Shown: positions 3,486-29,149 of the stretch, piece after piece
How the letters are laid out: every line of letters starts with the position of its first letter
How positions within the stretch are numbered: the stretch's first letter is position 1
Assembly: GCF_015547515.1 (NCBI RefSeq)
Contig: NZ_JADMVE010000004.1
Location: 372,001 to 436,000, forward strand
Direction: 5' to 3'
DNA: 64,000 nucleotides
From: Eubacterium sp. 1001713B170207_170306_E7
GTDB taxonomy: Bacteria > Bacillota > Clostridia > Eubacteriales > Eubacteriaceae
Notes under the pieces: generated by a model
What the model was told of the DNA's origin: nothing
Database searches by the model: none
Seen by the model: only the letters and a program-made list of their open reading frames with translations
Position numbers and translations under genes: made by a program

Positions 3486-4697
3486 TTACAGGCGGCTTTT
3501 TTCCTCATGCTCCGGCTCCTGTAAGCCAGACCGCTCATAAAAGCCCTTGGCTGTTGCCACCTCCTGCTCCGAGGTGCTGCGCACTGCCCGCACACGGTGC
3601 AGCGTACGGCCTGGCCGTTTGACCATGGCGCGCACGCCCCGCATCACCCAGGCTGCGGGCAGCAGCACAGGCCTGCCCTCCACCCAGGGAAAGACCATGC
3701 GCATGTGGTCCATGCCCGGAAACAGGGTGCGCCAGAAATAGCGGCGCTGGATGGCCGAGAAGCGCTCCCGCTCATCATAGACACTGGCAAAGGCAGAAAG
3801 TTCCATGTTCTGTGTTGTGCCATAGGTGCCATTGCCCAGAATAAAGCGGCCCATCTCATCAGTGACCGCATCGCCCGGGGGCCCGTCAAACCAGACCTCT
3901 GCCAGGCGGGCAAGGTTATCCCCAAAGGCCTTCAGGCCCATGGTCTCAAGTCCTTGGCCGATTGCCTCCCAGTCCGCCGTCTCTTTGTAAAAGCGCCGGT
4001 ATACCCACAAATCCATAACAGAACGGATGCCGGTGCCGCCCTGGGCGTAATGCTTGGTCAGGTGCGCTACCATGTACAGGTAAAAATCCTCCGGTGTCAT
4101 GGCGTACACACACTGGAAGCCCTCCTTTAGCGCTGCCCGGTCAAAAATATGGTCGAAATACCCGCCGAAGCTGTATTTTTCCGGCAGAATATTGCGGTGT
4201 ATCTCCAGATTCATATAGGGCCTGCGGTAGTAGACATCGTGATTGCCGCCCTCATGCTCGCAGGAAAAGCCCATGCCGGTCAAAATCTGCTTAACCGCCT
4301 TTGTATTGGCGTCGTCCACCAGGATATCCACATCGGCCATGAGCCGCATATCTGGCCTGGGGTATGCGTATTTGAGCACAAAGCCCTTGAGCGGAAGCGC
4401 ACGGATGCCCCGCTGATCAAGGTCTTTGAGCAGTCCGGTCACAGTGACATGCTGGGTGGCCTCCTTGGCAATACCCGAGAGCCTGGCCTGCTTAAACCGC
4501 TGCCGGACGGCCTGCGGGGGCTGCTCCTCCTCCGCAAGCTTTTCCAGCCCGTAGTCGGCCATGCCCGCCACCGAATGCCGTCTGGCTTCTTTATAGATCG
4601 CTTCCCAGTCGCAGCCCGGCTCTAGCGGTTCGGGTTTCCGGTCCTTTAGTACCGCCGCCAACAGCTCTACCACATAACGTTTTTCATCTCTGATCAT
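3486..4697 (-). CDS. nucleotidyltransferase-family protein of RiPP cluster
   Basis: 403 residues with an NTase-fold core: PLKGFVLKYAYPRPDMRLM followed by ADVDILVDDAN (about residues 110-135), where the two acidic residues of the DxD motif would bind metal. This NTP_transf_5-like family occurs in RiPP gene clusters, including lasso-peptide clusters such as that of paeninodin. The role is not firmly established there; peptide or sugar modification is inferred. Its ATG overlaps the ABC exporter stop by 4 nt (ATGA), so translation is coupled. It is last in the operon and as GC-rich as the exporter, unlike the AT-rich modification genes further upstream. Confidence 0.8.
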   Translation of the reverse strand: MIRDEKRYVVELLAAVLKDRKPEPLEPGCDWEAIYKEARRHSVAGMADYGLEKLAEEEQPPQAVRQRFKQARLSGIAKEATQHVTVTGLLKDLDQRGIRALPLKGFVLKYAYPRPDMRLMADVDILVDDANTKAVKQILTGMGFSCEHEGGNHDVYYRRPYMNLEIHRNILPEKYSFGGYFDHIFDRAALKEGFQCVYAMTPEDFYLYMVAHLTKHYAQGGTGIRSVMDLWVYRRFYKETADWEAIGQGLETMGLKAFGDNLARLAEVWFDGPPGDAVTDEMGRFILGNGTYGTTQNMELSAFASVYDERERFSAIQRRYFWRTLFPGMDHMRMVFPWVEGRPVLLPAAWVMRGVRAMVKRPGRTLHRVRAVRSTSEQEVATAKGFYERSGLQEPEHEEKSRL

Positions 4698-6397
4698 TTT
4701 ACTTCTCTCACCCTTTTTTCCATAATTATTTTTCCGTCTGTAATGCGCAGCACCACATCACAGACGGTGAGGGCTGCGGCCTTGTGCGTTACGATGAGGC
4801 AGGTACGGTTTTTGAGACCCTGGATATTTTTAAGCACCCGCTTCTCCGTCTCCCCATCCAGGGCAGAGGTTACCTCGTCCAGCAGCAGCACCGGTGCACC
4901 GCCCAGCAGCGCCCGGGCAATGGCCAGACGCTGAATCTGTCCCTCGGACAGGCCAAGCCCCTTCTCGCCAATGACCGTATCCATTCCCATTGGCAGTTCT
5001 CGGATAAAATCCATGGCACAGCTGTGCTCAGCCGCCTGGATGATCTCCTGCTCTGTGGCTTCAGGGCGGATAAATGCAATATTTTCCCGGATGGTGCCGG
5101 ACAATAGAAAATTGCCCTGAGGCACATAGGCGAAAAGCCCGCGTGTCTGCCGGTCCACCGCGATCCGGAAGCCGTCGTCCATCCTCAGCCCGATATGCCC
5201 CGAGTCCGGCGTGAAAACCCCCAGCAGCAGCTTGAGCAGCGTACTCTTTCCAATGCCCGAAAGCCCCGAAATCACGGCAAAGCTGCCCCGTTCCAGATAC
5301 AGATCTGCCTGATCAAGCACCCTGTCTCTGTCATAGCGGAAGCACACCTGCCGCAGCTCAAGCCCCACCATGTGAGCGTAAAGCGCATCGGCGTCATAGG
5401 GCTGGCTGTCCACGGCCGGTTCGTCCGGCAGAGCCTCGATGTCCATCATCCGCTCCGCCGAGGCCAGCGCCCCGTAATACTGGGGTAGCATGCCCGAAAG
5501 GCCCACAAAAGGCGACTGCACCTGGTTGACCAGCTGCAGCACCGCCGTCAGGGTTCCAAAGCTTATCGTGCCCGCAATCAGCCCCTGACAGCTCCACATC
5601 AGCGCGTACAGGTAGCCCAGATTAAAAATAAAGCCGATGCCCGTATTGGCCGCCACACTGATGGTGTTCTTTCGTATTTTTTCGCTGTAATTGTCCTGCT
5701 GAAGCTGCCGGCCCTTGGCCTCCATGGCCCCCTCCACCTGAAAGGTGCGGATAACCAGAAAGCTCGAAAGCAGCTCCTGCAAAAAGGAGCGCACCTGTCC
5801 ATCAGTCTCCTGAACCCGCTTGTGCAGAGCCTTGAGGCGTTTCCTGAAAAAACGTGTGACCACAAACATGACCGCCCCGGCCAAGGCAAAGATCAGCGAG
5901 AAACGCCAGTCCAGCACACAGAGCACCCAGAAGGCCGACACGATCTTGGTGATGAGCCCGGAAAAGGTCGGTAGCAGCGAGGTCACGCCGTTTGCGATGG
6001 CCTGCACGTCGCTGGTGAGCCGGTTGAGCAGGTCACCGCTGTGGTAAGCCATGACAGCCCGGTAATCCTTTTTTAAAACAGCGGACAAAAACCGCGATTT
6101 AAAGCCCATTTCCAGCTTTCCCTGGATTGCCGCCTGGGCGTGGCGGCAGTAGGCCTGGAGCAGTGCCTGAAGCACGATAATACCAAAGAAAACCGTACTG
6201 CGCCAGACAAGCACCTCCGACCCCTCTGCCGTGGCCCCGTCAATGACGCTCTTTGACGCCAGCGCGAAGGCCACCCCCATACAGGCCAGCCCCACATTGG
6301 CTAAAACCAGCAGCACACAGGCCAAAATCTGCCCTCTGGCATTCTGGTAAAGCCAGGAAAAAACTTCCCGATCAGTGTAAGTGCGTTTGGTATTCAC
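4694..6397 (-). CDS. ABC transporter, fused permease-ATPase (putative peptide exporter)
   Basis: 567 residues. Residues 1-310 form an exporter-type six-helix membrane domain. The C-terminal domain has a Walker A SGLSGIGKSTLLK, a signature LSEGQIQRLAIARALL (LSEGQ instead of LSGGQ) and a Walker B VLLLDEVTSALDGE. There is no N-terminal C39 peptidase domain, so leader removal must be done by another protein, perhaps the S24/S26 peptidase next door. The start is GTG at 6397 after AGGAGA. It follows the peptidase gene across a 103-nt gap holding a long inverted repeat. Inferred role: export of the mature peptide across the membrane. Confidence 0.88.
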   Translation of the reverse strand: MNTKRTYTDREVFSWLYQNARGQILACVLLVLANVGLACMGVAFALASKSVIDGATAEGSEVLVWRSTVFFGIIVLQALLQAYCRHAQAAIQGKLEMGFKSRFLSAVLKKDYRAVMAYHSGDLLNRLTSDVQAIANGVTSLLPTFSGLITKIVSAFWVLCVLDWRFSLIFALAGAVMFVVTRFFRKRLKALHKRVQETDGQVRSFLQELLSSFLVIRTFQVEGAMEAKGRQLQQDNYSEKIRKNTISVAANTGIGFIFNLGYLYALMWSCQGLIAGTISFGTLTAVLQLVNQVQSPFVGLSGMLPQYYGALASAERMMDIEALPDEPAVDSQPYDADALYAHMVGLELRQVCFRYDRDRVLDQADLYLERGSFAVISGLSGIGKSTLLKLLLGVFTPDSGHIGLRMDDGFRIAVDRQTRGLFAYVPQGNFLLSGTIRENIAFIRPEATEQEIIQAAEHSCAMDFIRELPMGMDTVIGEKGLGLSEGQIQRLAIARALLGGAPVLLLDEVTSALDGETEKRVLKNIQGLKNRTCLIVTHKAAALTVCDVVLRITDGKIIMEKRVREVK

Positions 6398-6412
6398 AAA
6401 ATCTCCTGTCTC

Positions 6413-6501
6413 AAAGCCCCAGCCCTCTGCACCCCCGCCATCCCTGAAAGAACGGAATCATCAGAGGTAGAGACATTGAGGGTACAGAGGGCTGGGGCTT
6501 T
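6413..6501 (-). terminator. long inverted repeat between peptidase and exporter genes (attenuator-like)
   Basis: Arms at 6413-6434 and 6480-6501 match at 21 of 22 positions, built around AAAGCCCCAGCCCTCTG, with a 45-nt loop. The right arm touches the stop codon of the peptidase gene. On the minus strand the stem ends in CTTT and then the exporter RBS, so it would be a weak terminator or an mRNA-processing stem setting exporter level. Confidence 0.65.
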
Positions 6502-6968
6502 TATTTAAAACACCGCCGCAAACGGCCGGGCAGCCCCCGCCCCCGCAGCACAACATACCGCACCGGATACAAAAGCCACCATATCCGGCAGTACAGACGG
6601 TACCAGGGGTTTTTGCAGGATATGTAACGGCCATCACGCCAGAAACCCTTGACAAGGCCGATGATCTGGTCGGAACGGATGCCTGTTTCGTTCACAAGCT
6701 GATGATCTCCCCGGAGGGTATACGTTGAATCCGCGTGTACCTTTACCACCCGATGCAATACGTACTGGCCATTGTCTCTGATGTAAAACGGCAGATCGTA
6801 CTTGCGCAGACGGTTCGGTGGTTGTACAATACAGACCTGATCCTTGCGGTCGCGGAGGGTGGGCAGCATACTGGTACCGGCGGAGGTGAAAATGACTTCG
6901 CCGCCTCTGCCAAGCTTTTCCTGCATCAGTGGATGCATATCTTTTAATCTAATTCTTTTTGATTTCAT
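6501..6968 (-). CDS. S24/S26 family peptidase of RiPP cluster
   Basis: 155 residues with the signal-peptidase-like core FTSAGTSMLPTLRDRKDQ; Ser33 of SMLPTL is the expected nucleophile. YVLHRVVKVHADSTYTLRGD corresponds to the conserved region after the catalytic base. A short basic, aromatic C-terminus (WYRLYCRIWWLLYPVRYVV) probably associates with the membrane. This peptidase type is recurrent in clostridial radical-SAM RiPP clusters and is a candidate for leader cleavage, since the exporter lacks a peptidase domain (inference). Its start overlaps the radical SAM gene by 20 nt, implying translational coupling. GC content rises sharply here compared with the genes upstream in the operon. Confidence 0.8.
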   Translation of the reverse strand: MKSKRIRLKDMHPLMQEKLGRGGEVIFTSAGTSMLPTLRDRKDQVCIVQPPNRLRKYDLPFYIRDNGQYVLHRVVKVHADSTYTLRGDHQLVNETGIRSDQIIGLVKGFWRDGRYISCKNPWYRLYCRIWWLLYPVRYVVLRGRGLPGRLRRCFK

Positions 6969-7998
6969 TTAACACACGGTTATTGTGAGCCAGTGCTTTT
7001 AAGTAAGCGCTGCATTTTGCTGTACTGCCTGTTTCAGAATAAAGATTTGCCGGGCATTTCGTGCAGTAAGCATATTCTTCGCAACTCAAACAGTCTTCAC
7101 AGGCCTCAGCATTCTTTACTTTTTGCTTTAACTGCTCCCATGCCACTTCAAAGCCATCCTTAAAAGGTTCGGTATAAAAGCCTGTGAACATGGGACAGGT
7201 TGTCATCTTACCTTCGCTACTCACAAAGAAAGAACTTTTTCCGGCCATGCACCGGAAGCACTGCTCATGACACTCTCTGGTATCCTGCTCTTGTATACCT
7301 ATCAGCCCCTGCTCACAGAATAACTTTTGAAATTTTAAAACCTTCTCGGGCGGTATACGTTTAAAGCTATCCATCTGACCAGGGCAGTCCCTTTCCGGGC
7401 CCATGTATCCGCTAAAACGGAAAGAAAGCCTATGGTCTTTTACATACTCTGCAATCTGCTCATAGTCTCCCGCAAGTGCTGGCAGTGCATTGGTTTTTGT
7501 CTGAACTGGCAAGCCCGCTTTCTGTAAATTATCGATTGCTTCCATGACCCTATAATAGGCATCGCCATTGCCGCAAATTTGCTCGTAACGCTCGGCTGAC
7601 ATTCCATACAAGGTAATATCGATACTGTCTGGGGGGCGTTTTTTGAACAACTGCAAATAGCTGTCGTTTAGAAGGGTACCGTTGGTGAAAACACAAATTT
7701 TGGTTCCCATATCGTAGGTTTTTGTATAGATTTCTTCAAAATCAGGCCGCGTTAAGACTTCACCGCCGGTAAAGTTAATATAAAACACATTATTTTTTAT
7801 GCATTTTGTAATAAACTCTATCCATTCATCTGTTGACTTTTCGTCTAATAAATCTAATTTGTTACGTTCTCCATTCAAATAGCAAAACTCGCACAACAAA
7901 TTACAACGTTTTGTGATTTCTAAAGTGGCACTAAATGCTTTCCCTTTACTCACACTCTCTTTAGCAAGATATTGAATAAATTTTTTATATATACTCAT
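6949..7998 (-). CDS. radical SAM/SPASM peptide-modifying enzyme
   Basis: 349 residues. Cys32, Cys36 and Cys39 in EITKRCNLLCEFCYLNGER form the CxxxCxxC motif that binds the SAM-cleaving iron-sulfur cluster. The C-terminal about 110 residues form a SPASM domain with auxiliary-cluster cysteines (CHEQCFRCMAGKS, GKMTTCPMF, CEDCLSCEEYAYCTKCP). Such enzymes crosslink or epimerise RiPP precursors (sactipeptides, ranthipeptides and relatives). The start overlaps the PqqD stop by 1 nt (TAATG). The partner carrier PqqD and the precursor peptide are encoded just upstream. The product class cannot be told from sequence alone. Confidence 0.92.
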   Translation of the reverse strand: MSIYKKFIQYLAKESVSKGKAFSATLEITKRCNLLCEFCYLNGERNKLDLLDEKSTDEWIEFITKCIKNNVFYINFTGGEVLTRPDFEEIYTKTYDMGTKICVFTNGTLLNDSYLQLFKKRPPDSIDITLYGMSAERYEQICGNGDAYYRVMEAIDNLQKAGLPVQTKTNALPALAGDYEQIAEYVKDHRLSFRFSGYMGPERDCPGQMDSFKRIPPEKVLKFQKLFCEQGLIGIQEQDTRECHEQCFRCMAGKSSFFVSSEGKMTTCPMFTGFYTEPFKDGFEVAWEQLKQKVKNAEACEDCLSCEEYAYCTKCPANLYSETGSTAKCSAYLKALAHNNRVLNEIKKN

Positions 7999-8261
7999 TA
8001 ATCTAAGAATCCAGCTTCATCAATTTTTTTTATAAATTCTTCAACATCTACTTTTGCGTTTTTCTCAGAGACATCATAATTTTCCAATATTTTTTTCACC
8101 AAATCTTCTTCCGATATAGCAGTTTGCATATTCTCCCAGAGAAAAGCAGCTACTTCATTTAGATTAATGATCCCGTTTAAATCAAAAGCATTTTCTCCAA
8201 CTGGTATTACTATATGCTCATCTGCGATATTTCTTAATATAAAACCATCTTTAATTTTCAT
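7998..8261 (-). CDS. PqqD family RiPP recognition protein
   Basis: 87 residues; a PqqD fold is indicated by ILRNIADEHIVIPVGENAFD, then LNEVAAFLWENMQTAISEED and a C-terminal winged-helix-like half ending VEEFIKKIDEAGFLD. PqqD proteins bind the leader of a RiPP precursor and present it to a radical SAM enzyme, which is encoded directly downstream. The ATG at 8261 is preferred to the longer start at 8285 because GGAGG lies 5 nt upstream of it. That RBS overlaps the end of the HPr-kinase-like gene. Confidence 0.9.
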   Translation of the reverse strand: MKIKDGFILRNIADEHIVIPVGENAFDLNGIINLNEVAAFLWENMQTAISEEDLVKKILENYDVSEKNAKVDVEEFIKKIDEAGFLD

Positions 8262-8262
8262 T

Positions 8263-9135
8263 TTATCCTCCAAATACTGCTTCATAAACAGTTTTCACTG
8301 CATCATTATCAATCCTACACCTCATTTCATATACTGGAATCTTTCTTATTATTTGATCAATAATGCAGAGTATTTTATCCACTTTTTCATTATTATATTT
8401 AGGTATAATTGCTTGAAAAAATAACTGGTTAACAGCCTCTTTATTACTTAATTTTCGTATCGTATTTTTCTCACCCTGTTTCAAAAAAACAATAGCCGCA
8501 ATTGGTGCTTTTATATTCGAATTTATTCTGCTTGATCCTGCCCATGGTGTTCCATATGCATAAAACTTATCAATTACTTGACGAATAGCTGGTGTATCAT
8601 CATTAAAAATATTCACTCTATCTTTTCCAAAGTACTGTAACCATAAGTTGGTATGCGTCGTTTTTCCAGTTCCGCTCGGAGCTGAAAAAAGTATTGCTTT
8701 ATTATTTACTGATATTGCCGAAGCATGGAGGCAAAATCCATTATACTCTACCAATGCTTTTGAAAAGACATAGCCGGTTTGATTGTATTCCCAATCTTCC
8801 AATGTCATATTAGGCTCCTTTTTTGTTCTTCCTGATAAAAAGATTTTTGTATCGTTGCTCTTTTTATCAAATTCAATATTTAAAATACACTTTTTATTTT
8901 CTTTATAAAAAAAGCTAATGGTGTCATTATTTTCCATAATATAAGTATCTATAATTGAATCCGGTTTAAGTACTATATTATTCTCTGGTATTATTATATT
9001 TTGAACTTTCTGAGAAATAATTGTAAAGTCTTTATTATCTAAATAACCATCTTTATATTTTTCTAGTTCACTCTTTAGTATTTTACCAAAACAATCTATC
9101 TCTATTGATATGTCTGCAATTTTATATTTATTCAT
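8263..9135 (-). CDS. HPr kinase/phosphorylase-like protein of RiPP cluster
   Basis: 290 residues. The C-terminal half resembles the HprK fold: GFCLHASAISVNNKAILFSA, Walker A SAPSGTGKTTHTN (151-163), the acidic INFND-like stretch VNIFNDDTPAI (175-183) and AGSSRIN. The N-terminal half is unassigned. HprK-like proteins without the HPr-kinase N domain occur in RiPP clusters, where some phosphorylate a residue of the peptide, as in paeninodin-type lasso clusters. Here the substrate is unknown. The start codon lacks a good Shine-Dalgarno sequence and lies downstream of a strong hairpin, so expression should be well below that of the precursor. Confidence 0.82.
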   Translation of the reverse strand: MNKYKIADISIEIDCFGKILKSELEKYKDGYLDNKDFTIISQKVQNIIIPENNIVLKPDSIIDTYIMENNDTISFFYKENKKCILNIEFDKKSNDTKIFLSGRTKKEPNMTLEDWEYNQTGYVFSKALVEYNGFCLHASAISVNNKAILFSAPSGTGKTTHTNLWLQYFGKDRVNIFNDDTPAIRQVIDKFYAYGTPWAGSSRINSNIKAPIAAIVFLKQGEKNTIRKLSNKEAVNQLFFQAIIPKYNNEKVDKILCIIDQIIRKIPVYEMRCRIDNDAVKTVYEAVFGG

Positions 9136-9185: not shown

Positions 9186-9299
9186 TTAACCTACAATGCA
9201 AGAATCATCACAACTTGTGAATTGCAGATTAGAAGCTGCAATAGATTCAACTATTTCAAATTCTACTATTTCTATTTCAGGTTTAATATATTTTTTCAT
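9186..9299 (-). CDS. RiPP precursor peptide (37 residues)
   Basis: Too short for ordinary ORF calling but well supported. ATG 9297-9299 has AGGAGG 8 nt upstream, and the reading frame ends at TAA 9186-9188. The peptide begins MKKYIKPEIEIVEFEIVES, an acidic leader of the KKxYxxPExExxxF type common in clostridial RiPP precursors. It ends SNLQFTSCDDSCIVG, a short core with two cysteines spaced CxxxC. The neighbours are an HprK-like protein, PqqD, radical SAM/SPASM, peptidase and exporter. Likely product: a small peptide with a radical-SAM-installed crosslink, perhaps cysteine-based (inference). It starts only 29 nt after the stop of the giant surface protein. Confidence 0.85.
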   Translation of the reverse strand: MKKYIKPEIEIVEFEIVESIAASNLQFTSCDDSCIVG

Positions 9300-19570: not shown

Positions 19571-19825
19571 TTTCTTTTTCCTCCTGTTTGAATCCCTGAT
19601 CCCATAGACTTCCACACATTCCTGTTTTTGGCTCCACCTCTCTCTTTATATTAAAGTAAATTTAATTTTTATATCGTACACTATGTACGATTTGGGCTAA
19701 GAAATGGGCGGAGGAATAGGCGCCTCCTCCGCGATTACAAAAAGCTTTATATTCATGAGCACACAGCTCCGAATACCGTGATTAAAGGGTCATTTATGTG
19801 CAAAGCAAAGAAGTCGTGAATGTAT
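19571..19825. promoter_or_regulatory. leader/control region of the surface protein with two palindromes
   Basis: No gene. ATCGTACA (19673-19680) and TGTACGAT (19684-19691) form a perfect 8-bp operator-like palindrome adjoining a minus-strand TATAAA. GCGGAGGA (19708-19715) and TCCTCCGC (19725-19732) form a second stem without a T-run. No good -35 hexamer is apparent, so a promoter here would need activation, or transcription may enter from upstream. A lone TCGTGAA at 19814-19820 resembles one arm of the neighbouring recombinase-type site. Confidence 0.5.
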
Positions 19826-19849
19826 TCGTGAAATCGTACCATTTCACGA
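19826..19849 (+). repeat. left inverted repeat, recombinase core-like site
   Basis: 9-bp arms TCGTGAAAT and ATTTCACGA surround the asymmetric 6-bp spacer CGTACC. The whole 24-bp sequence occurs again in exact reverse complement at 21350-21373, on the other side of the recombinase gene. Two inverted binding arms around a 6-8-bp crossover spacer is the usual design of tyrosine-recombinase core sites. Opposed orientation of the two spacers would give inversion, not excision. Confidence 0.85.
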
Positions 19850-19915
19850 ATTTTAGACTCTAAACTGCTTATTTAAACCAATCAAACAAAATGCGACCAC
19901 TTTTCTGACCACTTT

Positions 19916-21145
19916 CTATTCACCTTTATCTATTGGAAATTCTGATATTTTATTCATTTCGATACGGTCTTGCTCTGTAAGTGGATGGATATAACGTTTT
20001 AACGTTATTGCTATATTGGCGTGCCCCAGAATTCTGCTCAGAACTGAAATTTGCATATTTTTGCCTGCGGCTCTTGTGGCGAAAGTATGCCTTAAAATAT
20101 GAAAATTTCTTTTTCTTATACCAGCGGTTTCTAAAATATGCGCAAAATAGGCCTGGTAAACTCTCGGATCAATGAATGACCCTTTCATATTTGAAAAAAC
20201 AAACGCACTTTTTTCACTGAGATTTATTTCATAATCTTTCAGCAAAGAGTGAATTTCGTCGTTCATCGGAATAATTCTTTCAGAATAATAGGATTTTGTC
20301 CCTTCAAAAATCATTTCCGTTTTCTTAAGATTTTCTCCCGACGTATTGACACGGTGTACTGCATCGCGAATCATAACAGTCTTTTCCTCAAAATCAATAT
20401 CCTGCCACCTCAGCGCTGCCAATTCTCCAAGTCGTATACCGGTCTTTAGCGCCAGCAAAACAGCGGTTGCCTTTATGCTGTCAGAATCCTTTTTTAGAAT
20501 CATCTCAAGCTTCCGGCACTCCGCTTTGTCAAAAACGTCTGCTGCCTTTTTTCTTGTTGTGGGAATTTTCACCTCCTGACAGGGATAGGAGGCAATCATT
20601 TCCAGCCGAGCTGCCTCTTTTAATGCGGAGGATAATATTGCAATGTGCCGCTTAACGGTTGCACCTGACAATTTGTCCTGTCTTATTTTGTTCTGCACAT
20701 ACGTCTGAACGGTTTCGTTATCCAGTTCACACAGACGGTAGCCGCCTATCTCTGGAATTAAATGGTTTTGAATCACACTGCAATACTGTGTATAGGAAGA
20801 TCTTTTAAGCTCCGCTTTTTTACTGTTTTCCAGCCATTCCACCAGCCATTCCTGCAAAAACAGTGAACTCCCCTCTGAGTTTATAATTTTCGACTTTTTT
20901 AGTTTTTCAGTGATGACGCCCTCACTCTTTTTATGTTTTTTATTTTTTCTTAAAACTCTTTGAAGCTCAACTTCTTCAAAATTTTCTTTTTCACAACATT
21001 CTAATTTTTCAACTACCTTCTGGTAGGTTTTAGCATACAAATACCGATAGACCGCTTTGCCGTAAATATTGTTATAACCCACAATACACCGCGCTTCATA
21101 ACGCCCGTCCGCTCTTTTTCGTACATTTTTTCGGTAATGCTTCAT
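19916..21145 (-). CDS. tyrosine recombinase/integrase
   Basis: 409 residues from the ATG at 21145, chosen because AGGGAGG lies 9 nt upstream (a longer in-frame start at 21184 lacks one). The N-terminal region (KHYRKNVRKRADGRYEARCI) resembles the arm-binding domain of Tn916-like integrases, followed by a SAM-like core-binding domain. The catalytic domain shows the Arg of TGIRLGELAALRWQDID, HILRHTFATRA, LGHANIAITLKRYIH with GH and the Tyr nucleophile. It is complete and probably active. No excisionase or other mobile-element genes accompany it. A perfect 24-bp inverted repeat flanks it, so it may invert its own segment and thereby switch the adjacent surface-protein operon (inference). Confidence 0.9.
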   Translation of the reverse strand: MKHYRKNVRKRADGRYEARCIVGYNNIYGKAVYRYLYAKTYQKVVEKLECCEKENFEEVELQRVLRKNKKHKKSEGVITEKLKKSKIINSEGSSLFLQEWLVEWLENSKKAELKRSSYTQYCSVIQNHLIPEIGGYRLCELDNETVQTYVQNKIRQDKLSGATVKRHIAILSSALKEAARLEMIASYPCQEVKIPTTRKKAADVFDKAECRKLEMILKKDSDSIKATAVLLALKTGIRLGELAALRWQDIDFEEKTVMIRDAVHRVNTSGENLKKTEMIFEGTKSYYSERIIPMNDEIHSLLKDYEINLSEKSAFVFSNMKGSFIDPRVYQAYFAHILETAGIRKRNFHILRHTFATRAAGKNMQISVLSRILGHANIAITLKRYIHPLTEQDRIEMNKISEFPIDKGE

Positions 21146-21285
21146 TCTTTTTTCCTCCCTTGGTACGACCATTTTTTTGACCATACTTTTGTTAATTATA
21201 TCTAAAACAAAGGGTAAGAAATGGAATTATATGGTATTTTTTTTATTTAGCATGTAAAAAAGTGCGTGCAATCACTCGCCAAAGA

Positions 21286-21294
21286 TGATATAAT
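21286..21294 (+). promoter_or_regulatory. outward-facing extended -10 promoter inside the flanked segment
   Basis: TGATATAAT is an extended -10 (TGnTATAAT); the -35 region 17 nt upstream is weak (GTGCAA at 21266-21271). It points right, across the right inverted repeat. If the segment were inverted it would point at the surface-protein operon. Confidence 0.5.
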
Positions 21295-21349
21295 ATCTTC
21301 AATTCATAATTCTAATAGTGTTTTTATCAGAATCAGAAGTATCTGGCAC

Positions 21350-21373
21350 TCGTGAAATGGTACGATTTCACGA
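21350..21373 (-). repeat. right inverted repeat, recombinase core-like site with terminator-like tail
   Basis: Exact reverse complement of 19826-19849: arms TCGTGAAAT/ATTTCACGA with spacer GGTACG. On this side the palindrome is followed by a T-run (21375-21386), so for rightward transcription it should also terminate. The left copy lacks such a T-run on its outer side. Confidence 0.85.
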
Positions 21374-21651
21374 GTTTTTTCTTTTTCCAACAGAATCGTT
21401 AATCAATAAAATGCCTGATTCTGCAACAACTCTGTGGAGTGCTTATCAGCTAAAAAGATGGCTGGCTTTCCGGTATACGCCTGCATTGATGAATTTATTC
21501 TGTATTCCATTACCCCTTTTATAATAGTTCCTTTCATATACTCTATCCCTATACTTTTGTTGTATTGCCCACGCTCTTTTACCTTGATATAATATAACAA
21601 AAGCCGCATTCGGCACGCTGCACGACGCTTCCCAAAAACGGAGGAACTCCA
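21374..21651 (+). promoter_or_regulatory. intergenic region with promoter of the sigma-54 activator gene
   Basis: No convincing gene in this 278-nt gap. A plus-strand promoter is visible: TTGCCC (21565-21570), 17-nt spacer, extended -10 TGATATAAT ending at 21593. It should drive the activator gene at 21652. Confidence 0.6.
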
Positions 21652-23100
21652 ATGTATAAAAATGATACTCTGCTCTATCGTGAATTAGAAGAAGTCACCA
21701 CTATTGGCATTCAGATCGTTAACATCCATAACAAGGTGATCTGCTATTCAAAAGGATGTGAGCTGATTGAGGGGTATAAAAGAAAAGATGTCCTGGGAGA
21801 GGACCTGAATTCTCTGTATAATCAGAGGCAGGAACTGAAAAACAACTCAAGCCGTTCGGTTATTGTGGATACTTTTTCTAAAAAAAAGCCTTTGAAAGAT
21901 ATTTTTGTTTCTTACACCACCAAAAACAGTGATAAGATTATCAATGTTCTTTGTGACACTTACCTGCTTTATGATGATAATGACCGTATTAAGTCTGTTA
22001 TTTGTGTCTATAGAGATATCTCGGATTACCTTAACCTGATTAGTTTAGTGAATCGTCTCAACGCCGAATTAAATTCAAAAAATGCCAGCTTAAATAATGA
22101 TACACAATATACGTTCGATCATCTCATTGGCGCCAGTCCTAATTTCATTGATGTTATTGAGCAGGCAAAGCGCATCGCGGACTGTGATGAATCGGTATTG
22201 ATCATCGGGGAAACCGGAACAGGAAAAGAGCTTTTTGCTCAGAGCATTCATAATGCCAGCAAACGGAGCAGCAACCATTTTGTCGCTCTTAACTGCAGCG
22301 CTCTGCCTGAAAATCTTATGGAAAGCACGTTATTTGGTACCTGCAAAGGCGCTTTTACAGGCGCGCTTAATCAGAAGGGGCTGTTAGAGGAAGCCGATGG
22401 CAGTACTTTATTTCTCGATGAGATCAACTCCATGGATATCGGTCTCCAGGCAAAGCTCCTTCGCGTGCTTGAAACGAAACGTTACCGCAAAGTGGGCAGT
22501 AACCGTGAACAAAGCTGCAATATCCGGTTTATCTGCGCGATGAATCAAGCGCCTCAGAAAGCCATCTCCGAAAAGACGATCCGCCTTGACCTTTATTTTC
22601 GCATTGCTGCTTTTTCATTGTCCATCCCTCCTCTCAGAGAGCGTAAAGGCGATATTCTTTATTTATCGAACTATTTTATAAAAACACTTGTGCCGCCATC
22701 TGGTAAAAAAATATCTGGTTTATCTCAAAAGACTAAAAAATTATTTGAAAATTATGCCTGGCAGGGCAATGTGCGGGAGCTTAAACACGTTATCATGCAA
22801 AGTATCTATTCTGCTAAAGAAAATGAAAGTCTTATTGAACCCAGGCATCTTCAGAATCACTCTTTTGAAAATATTCTGTCACACCCTGTGAAAGGTGACT
22901 TTCTCATTTCTGCTGCTTCTTCATCGGAAAGTGATTTAGCCAAAAATATTAACGCGTATGAGAAAAAGCTAATCCAACACGCTCTTGTAAAAAATGACTA
23001 TAACATCTCAAAAACGGCTGAATACTTAAATATAACGCGACAATCACTTCACGGAAAAATAAAAAAGCATTCTATCATTACGAAAAAGACTAAAATTTAA
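21652..23100 (+). CDS. PAS-containing sigma-54-dependent transcriptional activator
   Basis: 482 residues. Order: N-terminal PAS-like sensor (about 10-130), AAA+ domain with Walker A GETGTGKE (186-193), the sigma-54 contact loop GAFTGA (233-238) and Walker B STLFLDEINS, then a C-terminal Fis-type helix-turn-helix (YNISKTAEYLNITRQSLHGK). GGAGG precedes the ATG. It is followed by its own terminator and then by a perfect -24/-12 promoter driving mttB-MFS-mttB-BCCT, so that operon is the likely target. The PAS domain may sense the substrate or redox state (unknown). A paralogue lies at 62693 beside the second such operon. Confidence 0.92.
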   Translation: MYKNDTLLYRELEEVTTIGIQIVNIHNKVICYSKGCELIEGYKRKDVLGEDLNSLYNQRQELKNNSSRSVIVDTFSKKKPLKDIFVSYTTKNSDKIINVLCDTYLLYDDNDRIKSVICVYRDISDYLNLISLVNRLNAELNSKNASLNNDTQYTFDHLIGASPNFIDVIEQAKRIADCDESVLIIGETGTGKELFAQSIHNASKRSSNHFVALNCSALPENLMESTLFGTCKGAFTGALNQKGLLEEADGSTLFLDEINSMDIGLQAKLLRVLETKRYRKVGSNREQSCNIRFICAMNQAPQKAISEKTIRLDLYFRIAAFSLSIPPLRERKGDILYLSNYFIKTLVPPSGKKISGLSQKTKKLFENYAWQGNVRELKHVIMQSIYSAKENESLIEPRHLQNHSFENILSHPVKGDFLISAASSSESDLAKNINAYEKKLIQHALVKNDYNISKTAEYLNITRQSLHGKIKKHSIITKKTKI

Positions 23101-23113
23101 AGTATTTTATATA

Positions 23114-23134
23114 TTTTACAAAAATACTGTAAAA
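23114..23134. promoter_or_regulatory. candidate upstream activator site, TTTTACA-N7-TGTAAAA
   Basis: A perfect 7-bp inverted repeat 150 nt before the sigma-54 promoter, a usual distance for enhancer-binding proteins. A related looser repeat (TGTAAAAAA ... TTTTTTTTACA) lies at 23182-23215, and a similar GTAAAATA-N7-TATTTTAC palindrome precedes the second sigma-54 promoter at 59696-59718. Confidence 0.5.
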
Positions 23135-23223
23135 TTTTCTGACTATTCCCTAAATCACCTGTTTTATCCCTCTATATCCTATGTAAAAAAAGCTGACACT
23201 GTCGATTTTTTTTACAATAATTG

Positions 23224-23272
23224 AAAGAATTATTGGCAAAATCCTGTTTTTTTGCGAATAATTCTTTTTTTT
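23224..23272 (+). terminator. terminator of the sigma-54 activator gene
   Basis: An imperfect stem of AAAGAATTATT with AATAATTCTTT (closed by a GCAAAA/TTTTGC part) is followed by a run of T. It separates the activator gene from the sigma-54 promoter downstream. Confidence 0.65.
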
Positions 23273-23283
23273 ACGGCTTATTT

Positions 23284-23300
23284 TTGGCATTTATCTTGCT
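23284..23300 (+). promoter_or_regulatory. sigma-54 (-24/-12) promoter of the mttB-MFS-mttB-BCCT operon
   Basis: TTGGCA (23284-23289), six nucleotides, TTGCT (23296-23300): matches the consensus YTGGCACGrNNNTTGCW with the GG and GC at the correct spacing. It lies 50 nt before the first mttB start and just downstream of the cognate activator gene. Confidence 0.9.
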
Positions 23301-23349
23301 TTAGATTTAGTTATCCATTGCGCATTGAGTAAACACTAAGGAGGTTTGT

Positions 23350-24777
23350 ATGCATTCTTATGAAAAATTCATTTCACTGAATGATATCGAAAAAATTCAT
23401 CATGAATCTTTGCATATCTTGCAGGAAATCGGTATAAGATTTGAACATCCCCAAATCATTGAAATCTTTAAAAAGCACGGGATGCAAATTGATGGAAATA
23501 CGGTTTTCTTTGATGAAAAAACACTGGCGAAATATTTGGCGCTTATTCCCAAATGTTTTACAATCCGTTCGTCAAAGGGCGATTCCGTCTATGGCAAGGG
23601 CATCTGCCACAAAATGCCTGCTGCTGGAAATATCTATATTCAGGATAACGGCACTGTTAGGAAAATGACAAATACGGATGTCATTAATCAGTTTAAGCTC
23701 TCTGACACCAGTGACTTGACGGATACGAACTACATGAACATTTTTTTAGAGAATAAAGACTTTACAAAAGAACAAAGAATTTATGCTGAATTGGCAATGC
23801 ATCTAAAGTATTCGAACAAGGCAGGCCCCTATGTGCTGCCAAACACTTTTCAAATAGACAACATTCATGATTCATATGTCAAAGGCTTGCGTCTTATAAA
23901 AAATTTTGAGGCCATCCAAAACGATTATGTCTGTATCATTTCAATTAACACGCTTTCTCCTTTATGTTATGACCATGATCCGCTTGAAAAGATGTTAATT
24001 GCCGGTGAGGAAAACCAGCCCATCTGGATTTCACCCTGTGCCATGCCGCTTCTTACAGCTCCTCCCTCAGTGATGAGCATGATGGCTATGACGAATGCTG
24101 AAACACTTGCCGGGCTTGTTTTATCACAAATGATCAAGCCAGGCTTACCCTGTGTATACGGAAATACTTCAGGCTCGACCAACTTAAAAACCATACAGCT
24201 GAGCATTGGCTCTCCTGAAAGTGTTTTAGTCACTTACGTCACTAAAGCGTTAGCTGACTTTTATGGTCTTCCGTGCCGGGCCGGGGGCGCCTTAAGCGAC
24301 TCAAAAGATTTTGATTTTCAGGCTGGCGGTGAATCCATGATGATGATTTACGCTTCATTAGATGCAAACCCCGACCTGTTATTTCATGCCTGCGGGATCA
24401 TCGGAAGCTTTAATATCGTAAGCTTCGAGAAGTTTCTTGCCGATGAGGAAATGTATCATATGTGCAGCCGAATCCTAAATGGCGTAGACTGCAGCCCTGA
24501 AAAGGAATGCTTTGACCTCATTTCAAAAACCGGGCCGCGCGGAATCTTTTTAAAGGGTCGTACCCCGAAGATTTATCGTGATGAATTTTTTATGCCTAAG
24601 CTTTTTAACAAGGATGACCCCAACCAGTGGCAGCAGCACGGTTCTGTGTCTCTGAGGGATTCTATTCAAAAGAAAGTGGAACAACGGATTCTGTCTTACC
24701 AGCCTCCTGAAATCACGCAAGAACAGAGTTCACTTTTAAAACCTTATCTGCCGCAAAAATATATCGAAAAAATCTAA
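23350..24777 (+). CDS. MttB-superfamily (non-pyrrolysine) methylamine/quaternary-amine:corrinoid methyltransferase 1
   Basis: 475 residues, COG5598/MttB-like over the whole length. Diagnostic stretches are LHILQEIGIRFEHPQ, LSPLCYDHDPLEKM, SPCAMPLLTAPPS, GLPCVYGNTSGSTN and GGALSDSKDFDFQAGGES. True trimethylamine MttB is read through an in-frame amber codon as pyrrolysine; here the frame is open without TAG, so this is the MtgB/MtpB/MtcB/MtyB type that demethylates quaternary amines and passes the methyl group to a corrinoid protein. The exact substrate cannot be read from sequence. AAGGAGG lies just before ATG. It is first in a sigma-54 operon with an MFS transporter, a second MttB and a BCCT transporter. 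About as close to the paralogues at 26081 and 59931 as these are to each other, by motif comparison. Confidence 0.92.
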   Translation: MHSYEKFISLNDIEKIHHESLHILQEIGIRFEHPQIIEIFKKHGMQIDGNTVFFDEKTLAKYLALIPKCFTIRSSKGDSVYGKGICHKMPAAGNIYIQDNGTVRKMTNTDVINQFKLSDTSDLTDTNYMNIFLENKDFTKEQRIYAELAMHLKYSNKAGPYVLPNTFQIDNIHDSYVKGLRLIKNFEAIQNDYVCIISINTLSPLCYDHDPLEKMLIAGEENQPIWISPCAMPLLTAPPSVMSMMAMTNAETLAGLVLSQMIKPGLPCVYGNTSGSTNLKTIQLSIGSPESVLVTYVTKALADFYGLPCRAGGALSDSKDFDFQAGGESMMMIYASLDANPDLLFHACGIIGSFNIVSFEKFLADEEMYHMCSRILNGVDCSPEKECFDLISKTGPRGIFLKGRTPKIYRDEFFMPKLFNKDDPNQWQQHGSVSLRDSIQKKVEQRILSYQPPEITQEQSSLLKPYLPQKYIEKI

Positions 24778-24794
24778 GAAAAAGGAGAAACAAA

Positions 24795-26084
24795 ATGGCT
24801 GCTTCTATGTCAAAAGGAAAAAGAAATTTTTTGGTCTTTCTGATCAGTATTATGTGTCAGTTGATTTATATTGTGCCTTATATTCGGTTCTATTTTTATG
24901 ACCAATACGTCACAGCCTATGAATTAACCAATCTTCAATTAGGGAATCTTGGGTCGATTTACGGACTTGTAGCTTTGTTCAGCTACTTTATCGGTGGCTT
25001 TTTTGCTGACCGCTTCAGCATTCGGAGTCTGATGGCTCTATCCTTTACGGTCTGCGCCGGACTTGCCTTTTGGGAGGCAATGTATCCATCCTACTCCTCA
25101 TTGATTATTATTTACTCTCTGTTTGCTTTCTTTAATTCTGCCACAATGTGGCCGGCCTATATTAAGTTCCTGCGCGGTCTTGGCAGCGATGACGAGCAAA
25201 GCCGGCTCTATGGAACAAGCGAAGCTTTAAGAGGCGTTCTTGGCTGTGCCGCGGGACTTGGCTTATTGGCGCTTGTCGTTCAGTTTTCGGAAATCAAGGT
25301 TGGCGTTCAGACAATCATCATCACACTTGGCGTTTCATATATTGTTTTTGCTGTTTTGAGTCTTATTTTTCTTCCTAAATCAGATTCTGCCGAAAGAAAA
25401 GGGGCTCCTGCAGCGAAAAAAGATAAACAATCTACCTGGAATAACTTCATTGCGACGATCAAGCTTCCTGAAACATGGATACTGTCAATCTTTATGTTTG
25501 CCTGTTACTGCACATTTATGGCCGGTGTTAATTATTTAGGGACTTACACAACGCAAATCCTGGGAATTTCTGCTGAAATCTCAAGCGGCCTGGGAATTAT
25601 CCGAAACTATGGCATTTTGGTCATTGCGGGTCTGTTAGGCGGCGTTCTGGCGGATAAAGCGAAGTCGAGGCTGATTTTTATTGTCTATCTTTTAATTGCT
25701 GTTATCATTCTTGCTGTCGTGATGCCGCTGTCAAGTGGCATGGTTACACTTTGTCTGATCATCAGCATGATTTTACCCTTATTCTATTATGGTATTAAAG
25801 CGGTATATTTTTCTGTTTTGGGTGATGCCGGCATACCGATGGCACTGACGGGAATGGCCTCTGGTCTTATTTCGTTCATCGCGCTGTCACCTGATGCTTT
25901 TATGACCACCATCATGGGGTCCTGGCTTGACAAAGACCCTGTAACAGGCTTTAACATGATCTTTGGATGGATGGTTGTCTGGGCAATTATCGCGATCGTT
26001 TTTGCTGTTATTCTTTATAAACGCGGAAAAAACAGAGCATTAAAATCTGAAACCACATTACAAAATCAAGGAGAAGTTTTATGA
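24795..26084 (+). CDS. MFS transporter (paired with MttB)
   Basis: 429 residues, 12 hydrophobic helices, with the MFS loop-2/3 motif GGFFADRFSIRS and its counterpart GGVLADKAKSR in the second half. AAGGAG precedes the ATG, 17 nt after mttB 1. It overlaps mttB 2 by 4 nt (ATGA). Closely similar in layout to the transporter at 61424, which also follows an mttB: both begin with KRNFLV, and both share IPYIRF/VPYIRF and LGNLGSIYGL. Likely role: uptake of the methylated amine or exchange for its demethylated product (inference). Confidence 0.88.
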   Translation: MAASMSKGKRNFLVFLISIMCQLIYIVPYIRFYFYDQYVTAYELTNLQLGNLGSIYGLVALFSYFIGGFFADRFSIRSLMALSFTVCAGLAFWEAMYPSYSSLIIIYSLFAFFNSATMWPAYIKFLRGLGSDDEQSRLYGTSEALRGVLGCAAGLGLLALVVQFSEIKVGVQTIIITLGVSYIVFAVLSLIFLPKSDSAERKGAPAAKKDKQSTWNNFIATIKLPETWILSIFMFACYCTFMAGVNYLGTYTTQILGISAEISSGLGIIRNYGILVIAGLLGGVLADKAKSRLIFIVYLLIAVIILAVVMPLSSGMVTLCLIISMILPLFYYGIKAVYFSVLGDAGIPMALTGMASGLISFIALSPDAFMTTIMGSWLDKDPVTGFNMIFGWMVVWAIIAIVFAVILYKRGKNRALKSETTLQNQGEVL

Positions 26085-27523
26085 GCACAAAAAAATATAG
26101 TCACTATGTGTCACAGGAGATCATTAATAAAATTCACGAAAATTCTTTGGTTCTTCTGGAGGAAGTTGGCGTTTTGTTTGAAAATGAACGCGCACTTGCT
26201 CTATTTCGCCAAAACGGCTTTAGAATTGAAGGTGAAAAAGTTTTCTTTGATCGAAACACCGTTGAAACCATTTTGAAGCAGCTGCCGGAAAGCTTTGAAT
26301 TAACCTCAAGCAAGGGTAACCTCACCATCGGAAACGCCAGCCGCATCACAATGCCCAGTGGCGGTCCGGTTTACATTTCGGATCAGGGCAGGGTGCGGAA
26401 AACCACGAATGAAGATATCATCAATATCTTTAAAATCTGCTGTACCAGCAAGGAACTAAAATATAACAGACTGGAATATCTGCCGGATACCACCGGATTC
26501 GATAAAAAGCAGCTTATCCACTACCATACCGCTATGAGCCTAAAGTACAGCACCCTTACATCCTTTATGCTGGTAAATACCTTTAATCTTGACAAACATG
26601 AAATCTATCAGCACACTTTAGATGATATTGAAATCATCAGACGCTATGAAGGCGTAACGGACAAGCAAAAACATGTTAATACTTTCTGCGTTAACTCCCT
26701 TTCTCCGCTGTGCTACGATCATGACCCATTGGAACGTGTTTTTGCCTACGCAGAATCCAACCAGCCACTGTGGTTCTCCCCTTGCGCAATGCCCGTGTTA
26801 ACAGCGCCTTACAGCGTAATCTCCACGATGATTCTCGCGAACGCTGAAATTCTTGCCGGTATTGTTCTTGCCCAGCTGATACAGCCTGGACTGCCCTGTA
26901 TTTATGGCAATACCTCCACGGGCACAAACCTGAAAACGCTGCTCCTGACCTTTGGCGCTCCTGAAACCATGTTGATGATCTATGCTTCAAACGCTATGGC
27001 TGATTTTTATAAAATCCCCTGCCGTACTGGCGGTGGCCAGTCTGATGCCAAGGATGTCGATTATCAGGCAGGACTTGAGTCCATGTTTATGATACAGTCA
27101 ACAATGGAGGCCGGTACCGACTTGATTTTTCACGCTACCGGCATGATGGGCAGCATGAACCTGTTCAGCTATGAAAAATTTATTCTGGATGAAGAAGCCG
27201 TTGCTTTTGCGAGAAGAATGGTCGATGGTATCGACGGCTCAGATGAAAAGCTCTGTATGGACACTTTACGAAAAGCCGGCCCCAGAGGCTCTTTCTTAAC
27301 AGGAAAAACGCCTAAAATGTATCGGCAGGAATTTTATATGACAAAATATCTTAATAAAGAGGATGTCAACACCTGGCAAAACGAGGGTTCAATTTCCATT
27401 CTGGAAACGGCCCAGAAAGAAGTGCAGCGCAGGATCTCATCTTATGCCGCTCCGGAAATTACCAAAGAGCAAAATAAACTCCTTATGCCTTACCTGCCTC
27501 CTCAGTACCAGGATACTATTTGA
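26081..27523 (+). CDS. MttB-superfamily (non-pyrrolysine) methyltransferase 2
   Basis: 480 residues with the same hallmarks as the first: SLSPLCYDHDPLERVF, FSPCAMPVLTAP, GLPCIYGNTSTGTN, GGGQSDAKDVDYQAG and a C-terminal EITKEQNKLLMPYLPPQY. There is no in-frame amber codon, so it is not a pyrrolysine enzyme. It is translationally coupled to the MFS gene before it. Two MttB enzymes in one operon could act on different substrates or on successive steps of one pathway; sequence alone does not decide. No corrinoid protein is encoded in this operon, so it must use one encoded elsewhere. Confidence 0.92.
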   Translation: MSTKKYSHYVSQEIINKIHENSLVLLEEVGVLFENERALALFRQNGFRIEGEKVFFDRNTVETILKQLPESFELTSSKGNLTIGNASRITMPSGGPVYISDQGRVRKTTNEDIINIFKICCTSKELKYNRLEYLPDTTGFDKKQLIHYHTAMSLKYSTLTSFMLVNTFNLDKHEIYQHTLDDIEIIRRYEGVTDKQKHVNTFCVNSLSPLCYDHDPLERVFAYAESNQPLWFSPCAMPVLTAPYSVISTMILANAEILAGIVLAQLIQPGLPCIYGNTSTGTNLKTLLLTFGAPETMLMIYASNAMADFYKIPCRTGGGQSDAKDVDYQAGLESMFMIQSTMEAGTDLIFHATGMMGSMNLFSYEKFILDEEAVAFARRMVDGIDGSDEKLCMDTLRKAGPRGSFLTGKTPKMYRQEFYMTKYLNKEDVNTWQNEGSISILETAQKEVQRRISSYAAPEITKEQNKLLMPYLPPQYQDTI

Positions 27524-27539
27524 TTAAATAACGAAGCGG

Positions 27540-27578
27540 CCTCCCGCAAATTAAGCTGAAGCTTTTTATTGCGGGAGG
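27540..27578 (+). other. intergenic stem-loop between mttB 2 and BCCT gene
   Basis: CCTCCCGCAA (27540-27549) pairs with TTGCGGGAGG (27569-27578). There is no T-run after it, so it is more likely an mRNA-processing or stability element than a full terminator. It could lower BCCT expression relative to the methyltransferases. Confidence 0.55.
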
Positions 27579-27616
27579 TAACCTTCTATCAAGGTTTTTA
27601 TTTAAGCGAGGCGAAC

Positions 27617-29149
27617 ATGAAAAAGAAAAAAGTAAATTCTATTGTTTTTGTGCCGGCAATTATTCTATTCTGCTGTTGTATCTTTTTAGCTTTTTATAAC
27701 AACAATATTTTTTCCATGTTAACCAGCAGCCTTTACTCATGGATACTCGATCAATTTGGCTGGCTATTCATTCTGACAACAATGGCCGTGTTTGTAGCCT
27801 GCATCGCTCTCTACTTTTCTCCGCTTGGTCACATCAGAATCGGCGGTAAAAAAGCAAAACCGACCCTCTCAACCTGGAACTGGTTCTCCATTACGCTCTG
27901 CACAACGGTTGGCTCGGGGATCGTTTTTTGGGGCGCTGCCGAACCTGTTCAGCATATGCTGTATCCTCCCGTATCTTCTGGTATTGAAGCGCTGTCTCCC
28001 GACGCCGCTGTTTTCGCAATGTCGACGGTGTTCCGCCACTGGACACTACTGCCTTACGGCCTTTACACACTCATGACGGTTGTTTTTGCCTTTGTCTATT
28101 ATAATATGAAAAAGCCCTTTTCTCTGGGCTCGGTTATTTCACCAATCACTTCGGAAAAGCATGAAAAATCAATAGGCAATATCATTGATTTTATCTGCGT
28201 ATTCTCTTTGGTCTTTGGTTTATCCGCGTCGCTATACACTGCCGTTTTAAGCATCAATGGCGGTTTAAATAAAATTTGGGGTGTTGATTCAGATCTTCTT
28301 ACCTGGGGAATTATTATTGCCATCATCAGCTGTATAACACTTACAAGCGCCGTTTCGGGTATTAACAAAGGCATTAAATACCTTTCTAATATTAATGTCT
28401 ATATTTTCTTTATTATTCTGGCTGTTATTTTGATTTTTGGCGGAACCACTTTTATCTTTGGTTTTGCGGTTGAAAGTCTCGGCGATTTTATCGTTACGTT
28501 TTTTAAAAACTCTCTGTTTACCGGTACTGCCGCAAACGACCCTTGGGCAAAAAGCTGGACAATGTACTACTTTGCCAACTGGATGGCCTGGACGCCCATT
28601 ACCGCTGTTTTTTTAGGCCGCATATGCTATGGACGAAAAATAAAGGAAATCATCCTGATGAATCTTCTTGTCACTTCCTTATTTGGTATTCTCTGGTTCA
28701 CCATTATTTCCGGAGCTACTGTCAACAGTTTGATGAACAATCCTTCTTCCGGCTTAATCGATGCATTTAACACTGGTTATGAAAATGTAATTTACCAGCT
28801 ATTTAACAATTTACATCTTGATACCTTCCTGGTCCCTCTTTATCTGGTCGCGGTGCTCATTTCACTTGTCACAGCATCGGATTCTACGACACTGGCAATT
28901 TCCAGCCTTTGCAGCAGCGGCATTTCCCCGGACTCACTAGAACCGCCGAAGTTTTTGATTGTAATTTGGGTAGCTGTTGTAGGAATTGTAACATGGATTA
29001 TGATGTCCATAAGCGAAGGGATTACTGGTATAAAAATGCTCTCAAACATTGGTGGTTTACCTGCAATGTTTTTAATTATCCTAGTAATTGTGTGTGCTGT
29101 TAAAATCGCCATCTCTCCCCAAAAATACAACGATATCGACCATGAGTAA
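27617..29149 (+). CDS. BCCT family betaine/carnitine/choline transporter
   Basis: 510 residues from ATG 27617 (GAGGCGAAC before it; the longer start at 27569 has no RBS and lies inside the stem-loop). The BCCT signature is clear: GSGIVFWGAAEPVQHML in the substrate-binding segment and WTMYYFANWMAWTPITAVFLGR in the later helices. BCCT proteins import quaternary ammonium compounds such as glycine betaine, carnitine and choline. Its place after two MttB genes is the best evidence that the operon handles quaternary amines. A bidirectional terminator follows. Confidence 0.92.
   Translation: MKKKKVNSIVFVPAIILFCCCIFLAFYNNNIFSMLTSSLYSWILDQFGWLFILTTMAVFVACIALYFSPLGHIRIGGKKAKPTLSTWNWFSITLCTTVGSGIVFWGAAEPVQHMLYPPVSSGIEALSPDAAVFAMSTVFRHWTLLPYGLYTLMTVVFAFVYYNMKKPFSLGSVISPITSEKHEKSIGNIIDFICVFSLVFGLSASLYTAVLSINGGLNKIWGVDSDLLTWGIIIAIISCITLTSAVSGINKGIKYLSNINVYIFFIILAVILIFGGTTFIFGFAVESLGDFIVTFFKNSLFTGTAANDPWAKSWTMYYFANWMAWTPITAVFLGRICYGRKIKEIILMNLLVTSLFGILWFTIISGATVNSLMNNPSSGLIDAFNTGYENVIYQLFNNLHLDTFLVPLYLVAVLISLVTASDSTTLAISSLCSSGISPDSLEPPKFLIVIWVAVVGIVTWIMMSISEGITGIKMLSNIGGLPAMFLIILVIVCAVKIAISPQKYNDIDHE

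Follow-up and report, generated by a model that had tools for sequence, protein, structure and literature searches.

In the E. coli fimS / FimB-FimE and UpaE-type switches, as is proposed for the locus described here, a promoter that is inverted by a tyrosine recombinase controls a surface structure. The recombinases of these switches are encoded outside the invertible segment and are of the short FimB/FimE type, unlike the enzyme considered below. A recombinase gene within the segment that it inverts is an occasional arrangement, with Hin as an example (PMC5903667). Hin, described as a serine invertase with a Fis enhancer (PMC3798978), acts in flagellar phase variation in Salmonella, where the H-segment likewise holds both the recombinase gene and an outward promoter. 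In Clostridioides difficile cwpV/RecV, a Clostridium-type host inverts a segment before a large surface protein by means of a tyrosine recombinase; an intrinsic terminator decides the OFF state, and neither the promoter nor the gene for RecV is part of the 195-bp segment (PMC2784873). Tyrosine recombinases associated with invertons in Clostridia are further represented by inverton group 139 with invertase group 35, for which two examples with coordinates span ~230-260 bp with the invertase nearby (PMC11892184). A search of open-licence papers returned no description of such a cassette in Eubacterium, or of a self-encoded tyrosine-invertase cassette design. Large inversions between repeats require mate-pair libraries (PMC5903667), and therefore short-read inversion scans can miss segments of ~1.5 kb.

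Here we describe a locus in a 64,000-nucleotide stretch of a Eubacterium genome (the whole stretch analysed, hereafter the window). In its proposed function it comes nearest to Hin, by the recombinase gene inside the segment, and to cwpV, by its terminator logic, but it belongs to neither class: it uses a tyrosine recombinase of the transposon-integrase type, with promoter and enzyme both inside the segment. Specifically, it differs from Hin (and from Hin/Gin/Cin serine invertases as a class) in its Tn1549-like tyrosine recombinase, its candidate arm sites, a promoter at the 5′ end of the recombinase gene and a site that is also a terminator stem, and from cwpV/RecV in that neither promoter nor enzyme is found outside the segment. 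Tn916/Tn1549 integrases provide its nearest structure, Tn1549 Int, and share an N-terminal domain of the arm-binding type, but the window has no conjugative element and no excisionase, and inverted sites at both ends of a single gene take the place of the direct-repeat ends of such elements. We consider it likely, from the sequence and its relatives, that the 1.5-kb segment is a self-contained invertible-promoter cassette controlling a surface gene and a RiPP precursor. The Hin-like design built on a transposon-type tyrosine recombinase is probably new, as is the family behind the window cassette.

Recombination sites and recombinase

The sites, the recombinase gene and the promoter and terminator anatomy can be read directly from the DNA (Table 1). 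As an earlier, sequence-only reading had it, the two 24-bp sites are exact reverse complements and the recombinase gene lies in the 1500 nt between them, as in the self-encoded segment of Hin; the chance expectation for such a pair in the window is 0.00. The sequence TCGTGAAATCGTACCATTTCACGA has no further copy in the 4.27-Mb genome when up to three mismatches are allowed, and a scan of IMG/VR for the site returned one contig, with a single site. The same reading had described each site as a core site with inverted arms and an asymmetric spacer. Arms and spacer are indeed present, in the form TCGTGAAAT-CGTACC-ATTTCACGA, but the spacer is nearly symmetric and the whole site almost a palindrome, its symmetry broken only by the outer spacer bases (one C:C mismatch). 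Because each site is nearly palindromic, the inverted orientation of the pair hangs on a single asymmetric spacer pair, and ‘inverted’ and ‘direct’ pairing differ at two positions only. Near-palindromic sites could in principle allow excision as well, which we count against the switch reading. The spacer is more asymmetric in the paralog that was seen inverted (see below) than in the window sites.

Table 1. Features of the cassette and of the neighbouring surface and RiPP genes (window positions)
Feature	Position	Strand	Remarks
Left 24-bp recombination site TCGTGAAATCGTACCATTTCACGA	19826-19849	.	Recombinase-3′ side, towards surface gene; without outside T-run
Right 24-bp recombination site	21350-21373	.	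Recombinase-5′ side; exact reverse complement of left site
Tyrosine recombinase, Tn1549 Int-like	19916..21145	-	Pfam, PDB sequence search, AlphaFold + Foldseek, catalytic residues
Paired TGGTC direct repeats	21167..21184	-	Recombinase 5′ end; candidate arm-type sites / autorepression
Paired TGGTC direct repeats	19895..19912	-	Just past recombinase gene; putative function
Outward promoter P_out, extended -10 TGATATAAT	21286..21294	+	55 bp from right site, all four species
T-run GTTTTTTCTTT	21374..21384	+	Completes terminator; fixed to non-target flank
Giant secreted beta-helix/InlB-repeat surface protein, ~3,413 aa	9329..19570	-	Presumed target
Palindrome ATCGTACATAGTGTACGAT in surface-gene leader	19673..19691	.	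Invariant in four species
Leader hairpin GCGGAGGA...TCCTCCGC	19708..19732	-	Strong, conserved
RiPP precursor MKKYIKPEIEIVEFEIVESIAASNLQFTSCDDSCIVG	9186..9299	-	29 nt past surface-gene stop; good ribosome-binding site
RiPP-type maturation genes	3486..9135	-	ScmC/HprK-like kinase, PqqD, radical SAM, S26 signal peptidase, ABC exporter, NTP_transf_5

That the enclosed gene encodes a tyrosine recombinase was borne out by several lines of evidence. The open reading frame at 19916-21184 (minus strand) matches Phage_integrase in Pfam at 3e-29, and the residues R251, K297, H362-x-x-R365, H388 and Y398, invariant in 10 and in 40 relatives, supply the R-K-H/R-H-Y set that, with the fold, places the protein in the Phage_integrase superfamily. 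The nearest solved structure is Tn1549 Int (E 2e-17 in the PDB sequence search; TM 0.77 by target in Foldseek), and the AlphaFold model (mean pLDDT 85) has a three-strand sheet and a helix at the N-terminus, as expected of an arm-binding domain. Translation probably starts at the ATG at 21145, with GGGAGG shortly upstream, rather than at 21184, and the gene has a TATAAT of its own. The TGGTC repeats on the 3′ side lie 49-51 and 60-62 bp from the 3′ site and are both found in 11 of 12 Eubacterium cassettes, the exception (L049) having only the outer TGGTC on that side; the repeats may be arm-type sites, and possibly also serve to repress the recombinase's own promoter. We infer that the recombinase is active on the window sites.

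Outward promoter and one-sided terminator

An extended -10 promoter pointing out of the segment, already noticed in the sequence-only reading, was recovered at the same place and its position is conserved in four species. The palindrome of the right site and the T-run outside it form a predicted intrinsic terminator for rightward transcription; its stem has 11 bp (-14.9 kcal/mol), and eight of the ten bases after it are U. The tail scores (5.4 at the right site, 1.2 at the left) agree with the earlier observation that a T-run follows the right site only; once inverted, P_out would meet the same site and then ATACATTCAC. Because P_out would fire into the right-site hairpin and U-run, the orientation in the window is read as OFF. 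The sequence-only reading had left the ON state open; the family-wide evidence given below suggests that the window orientation is probably OFF and that ON is the state in which P_out faces the surface gene. A generic sigma-70 scan of the region gave promoter matches no commoner than in shuffles; in its place, extended -10 motifs were compared across loci against dinucleotide shuffles. An Rfam scan of the region yielded nothing credible.

The surface gene and the RiPP locus

The surface gene, which probably starts at the GTG at 19570, adjoins the cassette in four species of the limosum group and in E. barkeri. The palindrome ATCGTACATAGTGTACGAT in its leader, a single copy in the genome with up to two mismatches allowed, is a possible operator, and the hairpin formed by GCGGAGGA and TCCTCCGC a possible attenuator or RNA-stability element. 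The leader may therefore have its own promoter or operator, a point that we count against the switch reading.

By gene content (short precursor, PqqD, radical SAM, ABC transporter) the genes beyond the surface gene make up a predicted RiPP cluster. The proposed link between switch and RiPP genes proved to be real in the sense that precursor and maturation genes by the surface gene are conserved in five species. In the other four, the surface gene is followed by a similar precursor (KDYLKPGLDIQEFEVEDIM... or KYEKPEMEIQEFEIEDIM...), together with PqqD and later genes, so that the switch is conserved as one block with the surface gene and the RiPP genes. The precursor is separated from the maturase genes by a strong hairpin that has no U-run in the direction of the operon, which makes partial coupling of the maturase genes possible. 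Two features are peculiar to the window genome among the five: the radical SAM gene (6949-7998), which had no match in the others, and a core peptide containing Cys, where the other four have an acidic core, e.g. DSSGEEDL.

Orthologs of the window locus

Conservation of the locus was observed directly. The same surface gene and RiPP-like genes follow the cassette in four Eubacterium species (the window and three genomes labelled G001, G002, taken as E. limosum ATCC 8486, and G003, taken as E. callanderi FD), and a related cassette has the same context in a fifth (G018, taken as E. barkeri). Recombinase identity is 73-77% in G001, G002 and G003, whose sites are perfect 28-bp inverted repeats with A/T in the spacer, in both copies, where the window has C/G. 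A paralogous cassette, locus C, likewise shows concerted change of the spacer (AATGTA, CCTGTC, AATGTC). Such mirrored substitutions are what recombination between the two copies of a pair would leave. In the limosum group, perfect sites occur only as pairs that enclose a recombinase, and an empty locus with a single site was not found there; in E. barkeri one perfect copy is kept and its partner has decayed.

The neighbourhood on the right varies between species, while the T-run and all that lies inward of it are conserved. In the window, a divergent sigma-54 regulator, two MttB-like methyltransferases and MFS and BCCT transporters lie to the right of the switch (21652-29149), a block that is rearranged or missing in relatives such as E. 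callanderi.

Paralogous cassettes seen in both orientations

Besides the window locus (locus A), the genus Eubacterium has paralogous cassettes at loci B and C. Locus B has as its target a von Willebrand-A/signal-peptidase/TasA-like operon (judged by eye from the sequence), and locus C a giant lipoprotein-like protein. At locus B, G001 and G003 align over ~16 kb at ~99.5% identity with the segment exactly reversed from site to site, the G003 copy coming from a 30-contig draft. Over a 5.5-kb stretch, identity rises from 84.5% as is to 99.4% when the segment alone is reversed, and the flanks of the two copies match only when swapped, with the breakpoints at the sites; G002 has the state of G001. 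The U-tract does not move with the flipping segment but stays on its flank. Among more distant relatives, two further groups of orthologous loci were also found in opposite states, L107/L123 against L130 and L114 against L132, all of them from metagenome bins.

Both orientations were thus observed directly in a paralogous cassette and in two ortholog groups, and these, with the recurring promoter and terminator, support the invertible switch that had been proposed from the sequence. The comparison of related genomes suggested at the time gave the inverted state at paralog B and in the two ortholog groups, but at the window locus the orientation is the same in 4/4 species. The comparative support is accordingly strongest for the family and indirect for the window locus itself.

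In the window genome, locus B (surface operon and cassette, ~7.3 kb) is missing as one block (L154 3890-12561, C4 of the same genome, against L053); its flanks abut with a 36-bp overlap, and a similar ~36-bp sequence is found elsewhere on the contig. Not every relative is a cassette, since the recombinases of a fourth locus, D (L059-L062; G000 C1:481835 and orthologs), have no palindromic sites. There, a conserved recombinase of the same family precedes a gene with a sodium/amino-acid symporter-like product, and the locus is possibly a fixed relic.

A wider family

Relatives were taken from a scan of 84,980 species genomes. In 51 of 79 testable related loci, the recombinase lies between inverted repeats scoring at least 20, compared with shuffle maxima of 10-15 (for the 30 loci listed). 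The sites usually lie ~200 bp before and ~75 bp after the recombinase gene; their sequences vary between loci and are identical or nearly so inside one locus. Uncultured Clostridia and Bacilli are represented, as are Ruminococcus and Enterococcus. Of 48 cassettes tested, 27 carry a perfect outward TGnTATAAT, against a mean of 0.8 and a maximum of 5 in shuffles; a TTGACA-like -35 often accompanies it, and within a locus family its distance from the site is fixed. Among the 37 loci that could be assigned, 28 have the U-tract directly beyond the site on the flank away from the target gene (Wilcoxon p = 0.0006), and P_out points towards the target in 10 of these loci and away from it in 27, counts and a p-value that overstate the evidence somewhat because homologous loci are non-independent samples. 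The automatic tally of target sides returned the window and its orthologs as ‘ambiguous’, since there are open frames starting outward on the right as well; their target side was set by hand, and they stand outside the 27/10 count. The recurrence of P_out and of the one-sided terminator across the family supports the invertible-switch reading. Judged by eye from N-terminal sequence, frequent targets are secreted or surface proteins, signal-peptide-bearing operons and response regulators.

Related cassettes are also carried by Enterococcus raffinosus megaplasmids (L156-L160); in strain CX012922 the cassette lies upstream of a regulator and accessory SecA2/SecY2, and in strain Er676 it has unrelated flanks. 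No strain-to-strain flips of these megaplasmid cassettes were seen, the compared copies sharing one orientation. At L112, an 81-nt inverted repeat pair surrounds the recombinase, and the matching sequence runs on outside at both sides, which has the look of a gene end that was duplicated and not of a recombination site.

Alternative explanations

The switch may be real and its present orientation ON, in which case inversion would turn the surface gene off. Since the left site has no T-run and thus no terminator, the recombinase transcript, for which the gene's own TATAAT is available, could, as the segment now lies, run across that site into the surface gene. However, full 8/8 matches to the extended -10, frequent in the outward direction (27/48), are found in only 4/48 cassettes in the sense of the recombinase, and in the ON-like relative L130 a ribosome-binding site and start codon lie directly past the site faced by the outward promoter, so we regard this assignment as unlikely. 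We think it similarly improbable that a former switch is now locked at the window locus, with its sites kept by conversion or chance. While the single orientation in all four species and the decayed partner site in E. barkeri would fit such a history, the recombinase is intact and the site pairs stay identical despite the substitutions between species.

The resemblance of the enzyme to the Tn1549 integrase, and the origin of such integrases in mobile elements, could also point to a minimal mobile element, an integrase-only transposon that moves by excision and insertion and is no dedicated promoter switch. We find this very unlikely and have rejected it: the end sites are inverted and not direct, there is no cargo and no empty locus in the limosum group, the target gene and the flank-fixed terminator are the same across species, and the natural events that were seen are inversions. 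Coincidental bidirectional terminators around an ordinary integrase gene are scarcely conceivable; the palindromes do form a terminator on one side, but exact inverted identity over 24-28 bp in four species, with mirrored substitutions, is not what coincidence would give, and the inverted paralogs contradict it, so this candidate was likewise rejected.

Proposed mechanism and implications

The segment, then, probably switches the surface protein and the small-peptide operon by means of its own recombinase and an outward promoter between inverted sites. In the mechanism that we propose, the recombinase would bind both 24-bp core sites, with the TGGTC repeats as probable arm sites, and would invert the segment that holds its own gene, at the 5′ end of which a strong outward extended -10 promoter is placed. 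In the present orientation, that of the window and the three orthologs, P_out would run into the terminator formed by the right site and T-run (OFF). After inversion, P_out would read across the T-run-less left site into the leader of the surface gene (ON), and transcription would be expected to continue to the RiPP precursor, as no terminator is predicted in that direction.

Beyond this locus, we lean slightly towards regarding these loci as a widespread, previously undefined class of cassette in Clostridia and Bacilli. Each would combine a domesticated Tn1549-type integrase with arm-type sites; the recombination site would also be the terminator stem, while the U-run would come from the flank and not from the segment. 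In Eubacterium, such a cassette would place a surface protein and a RiPP locus under one bet-hedging switch. If this is true, a one-gene cassette would give independent on/off control of secreted adhesins, pili and regulators in many gut and rumen Firmicutes, each cassette with its own enzyme and site specificity, and here with a peptide-natural-product locus included. The family would then be a source of orthogonal, self-contained tyrosine invertases, and the window locus a testable example of a phase-variable RiPP locus in a harmless acetogen.
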